This document shows, in pieces, positions 7,491 through 38,772 of a DNA stretch of 60,418 bases. The position numbers and the translations under genes were made by a program. Position 1 is the stretch's first letter; every line of letters begins with the position of its first letter. The notes below the pieces were generated by a model, which was not told the origin of the DNA, ran no database searches, and worked only from the letters and a program-made list of their open reading frames with translations. Source of the DNA: Thermoplasmatota archaeon (GTDB taxonomy: Archaea; Thermoplasmatota; E2; UBA202; JdFR-43); the NCBI GenBank assembly GCA_029259055.1, contig JAPDJP010000008.1, positions 1-60,418 on the forward strand. The letters are read 5' to 3'.

Positions 7491-9554
<2,064 letters not shown>

Positions 9555-27823: not shown

Positions 27824-29965
27824 TTATTTAGGACTTATTTTTGGATGCCAGTCGAAAGAAAATTTTGGAATATAATATGGAAAATGTAATAAGTATAGAA
27901 TTTTTAATTTTATGCCAATATAATCGTCCCAATAATTTCCCTTCCATTTGTTTGTAATGGCATCATCTCTTGCATTCATTGCATTTTCTATAAAATTATT
28001 TGAAAAAATTTTGTTGAATTGACTCCTCCATCCAAAATATATTCCATAATGCTCATTCTTCTTAATTGTGTTTTTTGTTATGAAATTATAACTAGAATTA
28101 ACAAATTGTAAGCCATGCATATTCCCAAAAATTGTATTATTTATTATGGTAAAATTTCTTGAATTATATAAATAAATTGAATACCAATTTTTATAAAATT
28201 CATTATTTTTAATTTTCCCATTTTTACCTTCTACCCATAATCCATACCATTCATTAAATGAAAAATTATTTTTAACAACATCAACATTATTAGTATATTC
28301 TTCCCATACCCCAAACCAATTATTCATAAAAATATTTTTCTCAATTCTTCCATTCGTTTTATTTAACCATATTCCATATTCATTGTTTTTTATGAGATTC
28401 CCTCTTATTAAACAATCTTTTCCTATAACAAATATGCTCCTATTGAAGAAATATATTTTGTTTTTTTCAATTTGCGCCCCATTTCCATAACAAATTAGAC
28501 CAATTCCTTTTTTATATCCTTCAATTGAAAAATTTTTTATTTTGATATTTGGAGCTTTTAAAATAATTCCATTTGTTATTATTTTCGCTCCTTCCCCTAT
28601 AATTTCAAGAGATTTGTTTATAAATAAATCCTCATAATATGTTCCATTCTTAACAATTATAACATCTCCATCAGATGCGTTATCTATTGCATCCTGTATT
28701 CTAGTGTAGTTTTCTCCTTCTCCTACATAAAAAATATTTCTAATTCCTGCTACCGAATTTCCTCCGATCATCAGAGTAGGATCCCCAAATATTTCAAATT
28801 CTTCAACAGCTTTCATATGAAAAGCTTTTGCAACACCGTTTTCCCAATTGAAAGAATCTAAATATTCTTTTATTGCTTTGCCCCATGCCTCCCCTAAAAA
28901 TTTGCATTTTGTTAGTTCTTTGCAAAACAATATATGAAGCTTACCAAGAAACATTCTTGTAACATTTTTTCCATGGCCAATCCAACATAAACCTGTTGAG
29001 CCAATACTCGCTATAGCTTTTCCTTTAGAAACAAAAAACCAATTAAAACATTCAGTACTCCTATTAAACTGGGCTAATCTTGCTCCAGATGTGATAATGA
29101 TAGGTAAGTAATCATTTTTTAATTGTAAAATATTCCATCTCCTATAATAAATCCATTTTTCATCATTTTTCTTATGAGTAGCCCATAAATGATGATTTCC
29201 CGCTCCTTCAAATATTACTATCTTAGCTCCTTTATTTATGGCATCATTTATTTTTTTGTAATTAAGTTCTTCCGAAGCATATATTTTTGTTATGTTATAT
29301 CCTTTGAACTGTTTTGCAATTTCATCCAATAAATATTCTCCTTCCGCAATATCCCAAGGATCGTGCAAATATAAATCGCCCCCACACAAAACAATATTTT
29401 TATTGATACTCCCTTGGTATTTAATTATATTTTCGATTACTCTTTTCAATTCCCTCTCATTTCTTACTGGCAATCTTCCAAGATAAACATCTGGATATAA
29501 ATCAACTTCATCTGTTAATTTCTTGCCATCAATATCATGTTCATACTCTCCATAAAATCCATTTCCATTTGTATCCCATGAAGCAAATTCCCCATTTTTA
29601 TCATATATATCAGCATAATATAAATCGCACGGAAATCTTCTCTCATATTCCCAAGAGGAACTTCTATCGTTTAAATATGAATAACATACTGGTATGAATT
29701 TCTCTCCCCCAACAAGCAAAACATATTTTATTCCCCACTTTTCTATCGCTTCCTTAATAAAATATTTGAGCTTTTCTGGTGTATTTTTTTCTCCCAAGCC
29801 TGCAACTATTGTTTTTATTCCATGCTCTTCTTTATACTCCTTAAATTGTTCGAGCAAATCTTTCCATTTATCTGGGCATATAATCAGAAAATCGTAATTT
29901 TGGCTGGAGAAAGTGAAAGGTGGAAAAACCATTACAATGAATATGAAAATAGCCAACCATTTCAT
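27824..29965 (-). CDS. Secreted C25 (gingipain-fold) pseudopeptidase fused to a parallel beta-helix domain
   Basis: The 713-aa product has a signal peptide (about 1-21). Its C25-like region (about 24-405) is closely related to the divergent neighbour (DFLIICPDKW, YVLLVGGEKFIP, CDLYYADIY, YPDVYLGRLPVRNE, FGDPTLMIGG). Residues about 415-690 are right-handed beta-helix coils rich in NxxxxN and IxxN steps. Aligned to the neighbour, the catalytic SGHG is EGAG (Ala255) and the catalytic DAC is SGA (Ala295). Both members of the Cys/His dyad are therefore missing and it is unlikely to cleave peptides. A role in binding protein or glycan substrates is plausible. It shares a 46-bp promoter region with the active paralogue. 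Confidence 0.88.
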   Translation of the reverse strand: MKWLAIFIFIVMVFPPFTFSSQNYDFLIICPDKWKDLLEQFKEYKEEHGIKTIVAGLGEKNTPEKLKYFIKEAIEKWGIKYVLLVGGEKFIPVCYSYLNDRSSSWEYERRFPCDLYYADIYDKNGEFASWDTNGNGFYGEYEHDIDGKKLTDEVDLYPDVYLGRLPVRNERELKRVIENIIKYQGSINKNIVLCGGDLYLHDPWDIAEGEYLLDEIAKQFKGYNITKIYASEELNYKKINDAINKGAKIVIFEGAGNHHLWATHKKNDEKWIYYRRWNILQLKNDYLPIIITSGARLAQFNRSTECFNWFFVSKGKAIASIGSTGLCWIGHGKNVTRMFLGKLHILFCKELTKCKFLGEAWGKAIKEYLDSFNWENGVAKAFHMKAVEEFEIFGDPTLMIGGNSVAGIRNIFYVGEGENYTRIQDAIDNASDGDVIIVKNGTYYEDLFINKSLEIIGEGAKIITNGIILKAPNIKIKNFSIEGYKKGIGLICYGNGAQIEKNKIYFFNRSIFVIGKDCLIRGNLIKNNEYGIWLNKTNGRIEKNIFMNNWFGVWEEYTNNVDVVKNNFSFNEWYGLWVEGKNGKIKNNEFYKNWYSIYLYNSRNFTIINNTIFGNMHGLQFVNSSYNFITKNTIKKNEHYGIYFGWRSQFNKIFSNNFIENAMNARDDAITNKWKGNYWDDYIGIKLKILYLLHFPYYIPKFSFDWHPKISPK

Positions 29966-30011
29966 ATTTTCAAATTTAAAAAGTTTATATATAGTTATGC
30001 CAATTTTATCT
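29966..30011. promoter_or_regulatory. Bidirectional promoter between the two C25 paralogues
   Basis: Only 46 bp separate the two start codons. On the plus strand tttatatata at 29984-29993 is centred about 24 bp before ATG 30012, as expected for a leaderless archaeal transcript. The minus-strand promoter must use the caaatttaaa stretch nearby. The overlap suggests joint or competitive control. Confidence 0.5.
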
Positions 30012-31463
30012 ATGAAACCGTTGATATTCCTGGTTTTTGCATTATTAATGATTCCAATAAATCATGATAGCATAATGTGGTTAGATGATTTTCACCCTAA
30101 GCTTGAAATTAAAGAAATGAATATAACTGGGGTAGGGATAAAAAATGGAGAAATAGTTATTATTCCGAAAAATAAAGTCATATATAAGACTCCAAATCAA
30201 TACGATTTATTAATCATATGTCCAGATGGCTGGGAAAAAATACTAGAAAAATTGAAAGAACATAAAGAAAAACATGGGATAAAAACGATTATTTTTTCGT
30301 TAAAGGATTTAGAAGGAAAAGAAGGAAGAGATGAAGCAGAGAAAATAAAGTATTTTATAAAAGAAGCGATAGAAAAATATGGGATAAAATATGTTTTGTT
30401 GGTTGGAAGTATAGATAAGATGCCGATAAGATTTGTGATGTATGCTTGGAGAAGTGGATTTAAAATATATAAAGCATGGTTACCAACTGACTTATATTAT
30501 GCAGATATATACAGATATGAAAATGGAAAAATCGTTTTTTCTTCGTGGGATACTAATAACAATTTAATATTTGGGGAAAATTATGAAGAAGGACTCGGAG
30601 AAAATGATATAATTGATTTATATCCAGACGTATATTTAGGAAGATTAGCTTGTGAGAATAAAGTTGTTTTAAAAAATGTTGTGAGAAAAATCATCAATTA
30701 TGAAAATAGTGGAGGAGAGTGGTTTAAAAGATTGATTTTGGTTGGAGGGGACACATTTCCTGGATGGGGGGTTGTTGAAGGAGAATATATGAATGAATTA
30801 ATAGCAAACATTATGAGAGATTTTCAGGCATATAGAATATGGTATTCTCTTGGGAATTTAAATGCAATAGAAATTGAGAAAGCTTTAGAAAAAGGGGCAG
30901 GCTTTCTTTATTATTCAGGACATGGATTTCCATATGGTTGGGCAACTCATCCGATAAATGGGAGTGATGAAGAATGGGTAGGAAGATACTATACTCCATA
31001 TATTATCCCATTAATGAATGGAAATAGACTACCTATTGTGTTTCTTGATGCATGTTTAACAGCTAAACTTGATTTTAATTCCTCAGATTTGAGACAGGAC
31101 GGAATAAATATAAAATTTAATGCAACCTTTCCTTGTTTTGCTTGGTATTTTGTTCGCCATCCATATGGAGGAGCTATCGCCACTATAGGAGCAACAAGAG
31201 TTGCATTTACTGGAGTATATAAAGATGGGCCAAAATGGGGAGCAGGTTATTTGGCATATAAATTTTTCGAATCATATGATGAAAATAAGTTGTTAGGTGA
31301 AATTTTTGTAGAAGCTCAACAAAAATACGCTACCAAAAACCCATGGGATAAATGGACTTTGCAAGAATTTATATTGCTTGGAGACCCTACCCTGAAGATA
31401 GGGGGTTATAAAACAACAAATTTTTATATGTTGGCTAATATTCATTTTAAGGGGGGCCCGTAG
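30012..31463 (+). CDS. Secreted C25 (gingipain-like) cysteine peptidase
   Basis: From ATG 30012 (MKPLIFLVF, a signal peptide placed 24 bp after a TATA box) the product is 483 aa; longer upstream starts would lack a sensible signal. The C25 fold is complete: YDLLIICPDGW, YVLLVGSIDKMP, DLYYADIYRY, YPDVYLGRLACEN, the catalytic His304 in YYSGHGFPYGWATH and Cys348 in FLDACLTAKLDFN. LGDPTLKIGG closes the domain. It should be an extracellular endopeptidase. The short tail after the domain (FYMLANIHFKGGP) has no anchor, and the stop codon lies inside the tRNA-CAU gene. The original C-terminus may therefore have been lost. Confidence 0.9.
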   Translation: MKPLIFLVFALLMIPINHDSIMWLDDFHPKLEIKEMNITGVGIKNGEIVIIPKNKVIYKTPNQYDLLIICPDGWEKILEKLKEHKEKHGIKTIIFSLKDLEGKEGRDEAEKIKYFIKEAIEKYGIKYVLLVGSIDKMPIRFVMYAWRSGFKIYKAWLPTDLYYADIYRYENGKIVFSSWDTNNNLIFGENYEEGLGENDIIDLYPDVYLGRLACENKVVLKNVVRKIINYENSGGEWFKRLILVGGDTFPGWGVVEGEYMNELIANIMRDFQAYRIWYSLGNLNAIEIEKALEKGAGFLYYSGHGFPYGWATHPINGSDEEWVGRYYTPYIIPLMNGNRLPIVFLDACLTAKLDFNSSDLRQDGINIKFNATFPCFAWYFVRHPYGGAIATIGATRVAFTGVYKDGPKWGAGYLAYKFFESYDENKLLGEIFVEAQQKYATKNPWDKWTLQEFILLGDPTLKIGGYKTTNFYMLANIHFKGGP

Positions 31464-37400: not shown

Positions 37401-37637
37401 ATGATGAAAATTGCGGTTAAAGATGCTGAAACTGGGAATAGGATAAGTATGGAAGTTGAAAAAGATAATACAATAGAGGAAATTATTGAAGAAGCTGCCA
37501 ATTATTGGAGAAAAGACCCAGGAGCATATGTAGTAAGGTTGGGAAAGAAGATTTTGAGGGGAGAAGCAACTGTTGAAGAAGCGAGGCTACAAGAAGGAGA
37601 TATCATTGAATTAATTCCAGACCCAGAAGGAGGTTAA
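37401..37637 (+). CDS. Ubiquitin-like (beta-grasp) modifier ending in Gly-Gly
   Basis: The 78-aa product fits one beta-grasp domain. A beta hairpin (MKIAVKDAETGNRISMEVEKDNTI) precedes the helix (EEIIEEAANYWRK). Further strands include YVVRLGKKILRGEATVEEARLQEGDIIELIP, the ubiquitin-type tail strand. The chain ends exactly DPEGG-stop, so the C-terminal diglycine is exposed without processing, unlike eukaryotic ubiquitin precursors. The known archaeal SAMP proteins share this end. What sets it apart is the next two genes, an E2 and a JAMM peptidase, in one operon. The expected role is covalent protein modification, possibly also sulfur transfer. The substrate proteins are unknown. Confidence 0.93.
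   Translation: MMKIAVKDAETGNRISMEVEKDNTIEEIIEEAANYWRKDPGAYVVRLGKKILRGEATVEEARLQEGDIIELIPDPEGG
37627..37634 (+). promoter_or_regulatory. Shine-Dalgarno for the E2 embedded in the modifier's diglycine codons
   Basis: The final codons gaa gga ggt (Glu-Gly-Gly) read aaggaggt-like on the mRNA, and the E2 ATG follows the taa stop with no gap. The conserved GG tail therefore also serves as the ribosome-binding site of the E2. The spacing to ATG is short (about 3-4 nt), which points to coupled re-initiation. Confidence 0.6.
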
Positions 37638-38150
37638 ATGCCTCTCCCTAAGGATTTATTGATTAAAAGAATAAAAAATGAACTAAGGGAATGTAGAAAA
37701 AATTTTAGACACCATTTTATCGTTGCTGATAAAGAATTTAAAAAATTTCCTATAGAAATTACCGTTACCTTAGTAAATACTCCTGGACCAATTTTCAATG
37801 AAGGAAAAGTTATTCATAAATATACTCACAAATTAAAGATAATCATTACGGAAGATTATCCATATCAAACACCTATTGTGAGATGGAGAAGCAATATTTT
37901 CCATCCAAATATAATGCCTCCAGAAGAAGGAGGATATGTATGCACTAAATTGTTGGAAGGATGGAAATTTAAGTCAAATTTGGTTGCTTTTATTAAAGGG
38001 ATAGAAACATTGCTTGCAAACCCCAATCCAGAAAATCCCTTTGAAACAGATACATGCACCAGAGCCGCGGAATATTTTAATAAAAATCCATACAATCCTC
38101 CCCAAAAGATGAATCATAAGCCCCGTATTGTAGGTGAAGAAGTTGATTAA
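37638..38150 (+). CDS. E2 (UBC-fold) ubiquitin-conjugating enzyme
   Basis: The 170-aa product has the complete UBC core. Helix 1 is KRIKNELRECRK, and the strand set ends in YPYQTPIVRW. The HPN motif is H89-P90-N91 (IFHPNI), the catalytic Cys is C102 in GGYVCTKLLEGW, and the LLANPNPENPF segment and crossing helix AAEYFNKNP follow. The Trp after the Cys and the PN motif match eukaryotic E2s closely. It should accept the modifier as a thioester and pass it to a Lys or lipid amine. It begins directly after the modifier stop and overlaps the JAMM gene by 17 bp. No E1 or RING gene is nearby. Confidence 0.94.
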   Translation: MPLPKDLLIKRIKNELRECRKNFRHHFIVADKEFKKFPIEITVTLVNTPGPIFNEGKVIHKYTHKLKIIITEDYPYQTPIVRWRSNIFHPNIMPPEEGGYVCTKLLEGWKFKSNLVAFIKGIETLLANPNPENPFETDTCTRAAEYFNKNPYNPPQKMNHKPRIVGEEVD

Positions 38151-38772
38151 GATAAGCGGTGAGGAAAAGAAAAAGCAGAAAATCCAGCCTCCACCAACCA
38201 AAATAATATTTGAATATCCTTCCAGCAACACAGAAGAATTCATAAAAAAATTATATGAGGAGATGGGGCTACAGGAATTGAGCAATGGAATAGAATGTAT
38301 GGAAAAGGAAGTTGAAAGCACCTTTTCTAAAAATTTAGATTTTTATATAAAAGAGGAAGCACTTAAAAAAATGGTCTTACATTGTTATGAGATGGCTAAA
38401 GAAAGAAAAGAAGCAATGGGTTTTTTAATAGGAGACGTTAAGTACTGGGATAGAGAATATTCGGTAGTATATGATATTGCTACAACCTCGTTGGACGCCT
38501 CACCATTTTATGTAAGATTTGATAGAGAAGCATTTGAAAATCTATTTGATAAGTTAGATGAAATTGAATATGAATATATACTAATTGGATGGTATCATTC
38601 ACATCTTGGATATACAAGCTTTATGTCAAGCATTGATTTAGAGACCCAGAAAAAATATTTTAACCAACCTTTTCATGCTGCTATAGTTCTTGACCCAATT
38701 GCAAAAGATATGAAAGCCTTTAGATTAATGAATGGAGATTGCGTTGAAATTCCATTTGCAATTTTTAAGTAA
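38134..38772 (+). CDS. JAMM/MPN+ metallo-isopeptidase
   Basis: The 212-aa product (GTG start 38134) has about 70 N-terminal residues with no clear domain, then an MPN+ domain. The metal-site motif is intact: Glu93 (KEAMGFLIG), then H155-S-H157-x7-S165-x2-D168 (WYHSHLGYTSFMSSID). This is the active Zn site of Rpn11, CSN5 and archaeal JAMM1 deubiquitylases. It would remove the operon's modifier from targets. Because the modifier already ends in GG, precursor trimming is not needed, so deconjugation is the likely job. It overlaps the E2 by 17 bp and converges on lysK (8 bp). Confidence 0.94.
   Translation: MKKLIKISGEEKKKQKIQPPPTKIIFEYPSSNTEEFIKKLYEEMGLQELSNGIECMEKEVESTFSKNLDFYIKEEALKKMVLHCYEMAKERKEAMGFLIGDVKYWDREYSVVYDIATTSLDASPFYVRFDREAFENLFDKLDEIEYEYILIGWYHSHLGYTSFMSSIDLETQKKYFNQPFHAAIVLDPIAKDMKAFRLMNGDCVEIPFAIFK

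Follow-up and report, generated by a model that had tools for sequence, protein, structure and literature searches.

The three-gene cassette in the window, which is the whole 60,418-nucleotide stretch of Thermoplasmatota DNA analysed here, very probably represents three of the four genes of an operon for ubiquitin-like conjugation, E1-Ub-E2-JAMM; the operon is found widely in Thermoplasmatota, and its E1 gene has moved elsewhere in this genome. The conjugation cascade itself is included in this estimate. The window genome and many of its relatives, among them a rumen methanogen, appear to have a full ubiquitin-like tagging system, made up of modifier, E1, E2, JAMM protease and probably RING ligases anchored in the membrane, and the best reading of the sequences is that of a genuine conjugation system that is a variant of the known archaeal Ub operons. 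Work on E2-dependent ubiquitination in archaea has used proteins of the uncultured Caldiarchaeum, and apart from this the process is ascribed to Asgard archaea; the operon would extend this eukaryote-style modification to a further archaeal branch.

The modifier, E2 and JAMM genes

An ORF check of the window recovered the ubiquitin-like modifier (UBL), the E2 and the JAMM protein where a reading of the sequence alone had placed them:

37401..37637, + strand: UBL, 78 amino acids, C-terminus IPDPEGG with exposed GG; probable start 37404 (basis: Pfam, AlphaFold2, homologues)
37638..38150, + strand: E2 ubiquitin-conjugating enzyme, 170 amino acids; HPN codons 37902-37910, catalytic Cys102 codon 37941-37943
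38134..38772, + strand: Rpn11/CSN5-type JAMM (MPN+) metalloprotease, 212 amino acids; probable start TTG 38143; motif codons E93 38410-38412 and H155-x-H157 38596-38604, with S165 and D168 further downstream

The E2 start codon begins at the base right after the UBL stop, and the JAMM start overlaps the 3' end of the E2 gene. The three genes had been described as fused into an overlapping operon; they do overlap, but they are separate genes. Relatives begin at 37404 and 38143, which suggests that the second ATG is the true start of the UBL and the TTG that of the JAMM protein. The identities originally proposed for the three products were borne out by Pfam, AlphaFold2 and invariant motifs.

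The UBL alone matched Pfam ubiquitin at 5.7e-5, slightly below the curated cut-off. Its AlphaFold2 model, built with 45 homologues, had a pLDDT of 94.4 and the strand and helix order of a beta-grasp protein, and Foldseek matched it to ubiquitin, NEDD8, SUMO and the Caldiarchaeum Ub (probability 1.00, TMq 0.80-0.88), so that the assignment of the 78-residue protein to the beta-grasp fold held. The motif PDPEGG closes the folded part in 75 of 75 modifiers from loci of the phylum; it is followed by no further residue in 38 of them and by 1-15 variable residues in 37. These tails follow the precursor pattern of ubiquitin, NEDD8 and Caldiarchaeum Ub. The precursors of ubiquitin and NEDD8 extend beyond GG, and a protease exposes it. 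In Caldiarchaeum, too, the GG of the ubiquitin precursor is exposed by a protease (PMC5654768). In one lineage (L080:4915-5982 and L096:4846-5979), the modifier occupies the C-terminal end of a larger protein whose N-terminal part carries zinc ribbons, i.e. a natural modifier fusion, and the JAMM protein is fused to a long coiled coil.

The E2 matched Pfam UQ_con at 2e-15, and its AlphaFold2 model (pLDDT 87.9) has a UBC fold that Foldseek aligned to UBC domains with a probability of 1.00 and a TM of about 0.6. In a profile alignment to UBE2A, the HPN motif, the catalytic Cys and the PNP segment line up, whereas the loop with the SPA residues of RING-binding eukaryotic E2s is conserved in part only. 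HPN and the Cys are invariant in the 16 E2s of the order, and HPN is present in all 80 E2s from loci of the phylum. No relative of the E2 was found in a plasmid collection.

Pfam JAB matched the JAMM protein at 4.5e-13. A profile of the JAMM family matched Rpn11 first (1.4e-18), ahead of CsRpn11 of Caldiarchaeum (3e-17), CSN5 and then AMSH, and the desampylase model scored 19.6 bits, below its cut-off of 130. Residues E93, H155, H157, S165 and D168 are invariant within the order, and HxHx7SxxD is present in 77 of 77 JAMM proteins of the phylum. With its MPN+ motif and its closest similarity to Rpn11, the protein is classed on sequence as an Rpn11/CSN5-type JAMM. Two divergent JAMM proteins (L059:6590-7528 and L085:5524-6504) have hydrophobic C-terminal stretches resembling transmembrane hairpins, which suggests membrane anchoring of the deconjugating enzyme in these loci.

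Conservation of the operon and its displaced E1 gene

We scanned the contigs of GTDB genomes with the E2 alignment and obtained 119 relatives, of which 80 were kept as loci. Where their lineages are named, they are Thermoplasmatota, Thermoplasmata, Thermoplasmatales or Methanomassiliicoccales, or just Euryarchaeota or archaeon. Every one of the 16 E2-positive genomes in the order has the genes arranged as UBL-E2-JAMM (in one, a contig end truncates the UBL), and the three genes stand together in 72 of the 80 Thermoplasmatota loci, most of the others being cut by contig ends. Conservation of the three-gene order in relatives, on which the sequence-only reading had staked its claim, was thus found both in the order and in the phylum. 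Since PDPEGG (75/75), HPN (80/80) and HxHx7SxxD (77/77) are kept throughout, chance is excluded.

The neighbours named in that reading (infB, xpd, mbf1, sua5, lysK and csl4) agree with Pfam, which identified infB, an xpd-like helicase, Sua5, lysK and a csl4/Rrp4-like S1 protein, as well as an HTH protein consistent with mbf1. In relatives, SIS-domain, AP-endonuclease-like and ribosomal-protein genes recur beside the operon, as judged by eye from the sequences. The proposed housekeeping setting, as opposed to a defence island, is supported by both sets of neighbours. Upstream of infB, the window also encodes a gingipain-type Peptidase_C25 (1.3e-53) at 29913-31463.

The setting bears on whether the genes could serve anti-phage conjugation as Bil/E1-E2-JAB systems do. 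The four functions are the same as those of Bil, and Bil-like E2-JAMM-E1 arrangements exist in other Thermoplasmatota (L167, L168, L170 and L172). Against this, PADLOC gave no match to BilA, BilB or BilD and matched BilC at 0.0042 only, on which basis we rejected Bil membership, and conservation is vertical and patterned, in the vicinity of housekeeping genes (lysK in the window; genes for SIS-domain, AP-endonuclease-like and ribosomal proteins in other loci), and not in patchy islands. We therefore give an anti-phage system hardly any probability and retain the conjugation operon as our reading. The arrangement is E2-JAMM-E1 in L167, L168 (G022) and L172 (G198), and E1-E2-JAMM in L170 (G038); all four match the UBL-E2-JAMM family weakly and are possibly Bil-like systems acquired separately.

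The cassette had been described as minimal, with no E1. This is correct for the 60-kb window but not for the genome: a genome-wide ThiF search found two ThiF/E1-type genes, both on contigs other than that of the window. One of them is the orthologue of the operonic E1s:

G000:C2:68095-68874: displaced E1, 259 amino acids

It is 66-68% identical to the gene immediately upstream of UBL-E2-JAMM in G002, G003, G004, G010 and G012. Of the 80 loci, 56 have an E1 gene upstream in the same orientation; in 50 it is the direct neighbour (at up to about 105 nt), and in the other six the distance is 0.9-3.9 kb. Within the order, E1 was found in 15 of 16 E2-positive genomes (the lone exception is 86% complete) versus none of six E2-negative ones. 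Because the orthologue is off-contig here, upstream in relatives and co-occurring with E2, we consider the E1 to be displaced in the window's family. The genome-wide search and the synteny with operonic E1s led us to reject the E1-less reading: the gene is in trans here and heads the operon in most relatives. In the region L035:10096-13741, the displaced E1 shares about 11 nt with a radical SAM gene, and after the E1 comes a convergent PAPS-reductase/PUA/ferredoxin gene.

The second ThiF/UbaA-like gene (L034; G000:C29 near 8135-9088) has an extra C-terminal domain and stands beside a LarE-like PP-loop gene. It was rejected as the cognate E1, being closest to ThiF/MoeB-type models and not the operonic orthologue, and may act in sulfur chemistry.

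The displaced E1 is a single ThiF domain of 259 residues with no inserted Cys domain and no UFD, and canonical E1s align to its adenylation part alone. This part is closer to UBA1 (2e-36), UBA3 and UBA2 than to MoeB (1.5e-22) or UBA5 (9e-17), and the protein also matches ThiF/MoeB models. Conservation extends to the residues for adenylation, to a CxxC...CxxH zinc site and to Cys189 of the SCTG motif (CTG in 56 of 59). The thioester site is probably Cys189, judging from its conservation and from homology to UbaA/UBA5, which we take to extend to the catalytic Cys; a phmmer search with the E1 C-terminus gave nothing useful on this residue. In eukaryotic E1s, the UFD recruits the E2. Its lack counts against the cascade, as the hand-over from E1 to E2 would proceed without the eukaryotic recruiter.

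The compact, MoeB/ThiF/UbaA-like architecture of the E1 and its matches to ThiF/MoeB models also favour a sulfur-carrier system (SAMP/Urm1/ThiS-like), in which the UBL would carry sulfur for thiolation of tRNA or cofactors, or would serve SAMP-style marking without an E2. ThiS matched the UBL in the Pfam search, if weakly (0.031), and the displaced E1 is adjoined by a PAPS-reductase/PP-loop gene and the radical SAM gene. Yet the UBL is nearer to ubiquitin than to ThiS, the set always includes a conserved E2 with catalytic Cys and HPN, for which sulfur transfer has no role, the JAMM protein is of the Rpn11/CSN5 type and not desampylase-like, and RING proteins co-occur with the set (see below). 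Moreover, the second ThiF/UbaA-like gene beside the LarE-like gene could do the sulfur chemistry. We consider a sulfur carrier very improbable and favour ubiquitin-like conjugation.

RING proteins as candidate ligases

The absence of a RING gene noted earlier is true of the neighbourhood in this genome but not of the phylum, where RING genes co-occur with E2 and are operonic in three families. Pfam zf-RING_2 and UQ_con coincide in 31 of 194 Thermoplasmatota genomes, far above expectation. Two regular expressions failed to detect any RING, as H4 is lacking in the archaeal form, and they were replaced by a profile, A5, built from RING hits. Profile A5 detected a RING in 52 of the same 194 genomes, 39 of them with E2 versus 12.9 expected (Fisher 3.6e-21, a value that ignores phylogeny). 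By family, the overlap is 14 of 17 and 17 families among the 39 taken (2e-5, phylogeny below family level uncorrected). Location in the operon is stronger evidence than these statistics: the order is RING-E1-UBL-E2-JAMM in L161, RING-UBL-E2-JAMM in L159 and L160/L059, and RING-E2-JAMM in L098 and L102. These operons span three families, none of which is that of the window.

Scored alone, the RING domain is above the gathering score of zf-RING_2 and, for some proteins, of Prok-RING_1. Its ligands, C-x2-C...C-x-C-G-x2-F-H-x2-C...C-P-x-C, are C4HC3-like with H4 missing and an extra Cys two residues before C3. The Caldiarchaeum srfp RING similarly has a displaced C3/H4 and an extra Cys (PMC5654768). 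We conclude from its sequence and distribution that the RING protein is likely the ligase of the system. In family f16 (G029, G040, G048, G054 and G067), RING matches (E 1e-13 to 1e-16) occur where E2 was not detected; a diverged E2 or a different role of the RING could account for this.

In the window's family, the RING forms the last 45 residues of proteins of 799-934 amino acids, which consist of a signal peptide, cohesin, PKD/Ig repeats, one transmembrane segment (TM), a basic stretch and the RING. The 15 residues after the TM include 5-7 basic ones and those before it 1-2; because basic residues concentrate after the TM, a type-I topology with cytosolic RING is predicted. Both this topology and the E3 role are what we infer from sequence. 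Eukaryotic single-pass transmembrane RING ligases have a comparable layout. Methanomassiliicoccales-like genomes have smaller single-TM RING proteins with extra zinc ribbons. In G018 (L184:7051-8936), an in-frame TGA splits the membrane RING protein between ectodomain/TM and RING, reflecting either an assembly error or real inactivation.

Profile A5, positive in 52 relatives, found no RING in the window genome (best E 0.48, partial); zf-RING_2 was silent in 14 control genomes, so its silence in the window genome was not counted as absence. One candidate is the ORF G000:C28:16570-17674, whose 368 residues comprise a signal peptide and cohesin and run off the contig end. From its first residues on, it aligns with the RING proteins (35-36% identity, E-values down to 8e-46). 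The gene upstream of it closes with a dockerin-like repeat, as judged by eye, and is similar to the one that precedes the RING protein in G008 and G007. The RING may thus be cut off in this genome; since cohesin/PKD proteins are numerous in it, the ORF is a lead and not proof. It comes last in a gene cluster for surface proteins that bear cohesin and dockerin-like domains (G000:C28:12000-17674; L201), and its product resembles the ectodomain of the RING proteins.

A working cascade could also be E3-free, with direct transfer by the E2 and the RING association reflecting shared ancestry instead of function. The SUMO E2, Ubc9, which is able to choose substrates directly, is a precedent. RING was found neither in the window assembly nor in four E2-positive relatives of the order (G004, G005, G006 and G012), and the genome-level association ignores phylogeny. 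Set against this are the RING genes within operons of three families, the family-level association and the truncation of the window genome's candidate at the contig end; we regard E3-free transfer as unlikely. With a RING ligase taken as the preferred reading, the more specific proposal that the type-I membrane proteins with cohesin ectodomain and cytosolic RING tail are the E3s of a minimal E1-Ub-E2-Rpn11 system, in which an E1 without Cys domain and UFD works with an E2, is tentative and somewhat doubtful. If true, archaeal surface proteins would be wired straight to ubiquitination.

Proposed cascade and related systems

We infer every catalytic step from what was observed: the gene set and its order, the UBL and E2 folds, the catalytic residues, and the co-occurrence with E1 and RING. 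The modifier would be made ready with its GG end or, in about half of the relatives, with a short tail trimmed by the JAMM protein. The 259-residue E1 would adenylate the GG carboxylate and then form a thioester, the modifier would be handed to Cys102 of the E2, the RING protein would join E2 and substrate, and the Rpn11-like JAMM would take the modifier off again. As the RING is a predicted cytosolic tail of a cohesin/PKD type-I protein in the window's family, many of the substrates may be located in the membrane or next to it. Given the housekeeping neighbours and the lack of a Bil identification by PADLOC, we prefer to see in the operon a system that modifies proteins constitutively; its targets may be membrane or surface proteins, and it may feed a protease.

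The sequence-only reading had compared the cassette with the Caldiarchaeum, Asgard and Bil systems only. Those systems stand, but the operons of the "JAMM-3" proteins were missed; according to the main text of Fuchs et al. 2018 (PMC6043591), these proteins are closer to Rpn11/CSN5 and lie in operons with Ub, E1 and E2, no E3 being named. As far as described there, they share with our operon a JAMM nearer to Rpn11/CSN5 than to SAMP-type JAMMs and the combination of Ub, E1 and E2, and they may be the same systems. That main text leaves the taxa unnamed and says nothing about the architecture of the E1, its displacement or an association with RING proteins.

Caldiarchaeum and Asgard archaea are known to have complete Ub operons (PMC5654768, PMC6043591). 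That of Caldiarchaeum subterraneum encodes Ub, E1, E2, the srfp RING and Rpn11 (Hennell James 2017, PMC5654768; Fuchs 2018, PMC6043591). The Thermoplasmatota operon shares with it the enzyme set, the Ub fold (6fno/6fnn are among the best Foldseek matches), the Rpn11-type JAMM, precursor tails after GG and a RING with an extra Cys near C3/H4. It differs in lineage, in its E1 of one adenylation domain without Cys domain or UFD, in the Ub tail PDPEGG and in the RING, which is usually outside the operon and predicted to be membrane-anchored. Bacterial BilABCD has the same four-gene set of modifier, E2, JAMM and E1 but another gene order, E1 type and neighbourhood, besides the missing PADLOC matches to BilA, BilB and BilD. 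The haloarchaeal SAMP/UbaA/JAMM1 system likewise has a Ubl, a compact E1 and a JAMM; unlike in that system, an E2 is present and invariant here, and the JAMM is not desampylase-like. To our knowledge, SAMP systems have no E2.

Grau-Bove et al. reported RING and UCH in one marine group II genome (PMC4327156). Our literature search, which covered main texts, found no description of E2 ubiquitin systems in Thermoplasmatota or Methanomassiliicoccales, nor of the E1-Ub-E2-JAMM operon of Thermoplasmatota, its minimal E1 or the partner that joins cohesin, TM and RING. Such a system would change estimates of how old and how widespread the E2 step is, and would provide an E1 whose architecture looks ancestral together with a real E2. 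Its conservation in Methanomassiliicoccales such as the rumen enrichment RumEn M1 would permit tests in culturable organisms.

The PDPEGG tail could explain how the system went unnoticed. The last K/R of the UBL is residue 62, and trypsin would leave the 16-residue remnant LQEGDIIELIPDPEGG on the target lysine; since this remnant is not GG, standard di-glycine proteomics would miss the conjugates. Glu-C has a site after E76, and its remnant would be exactly GG.
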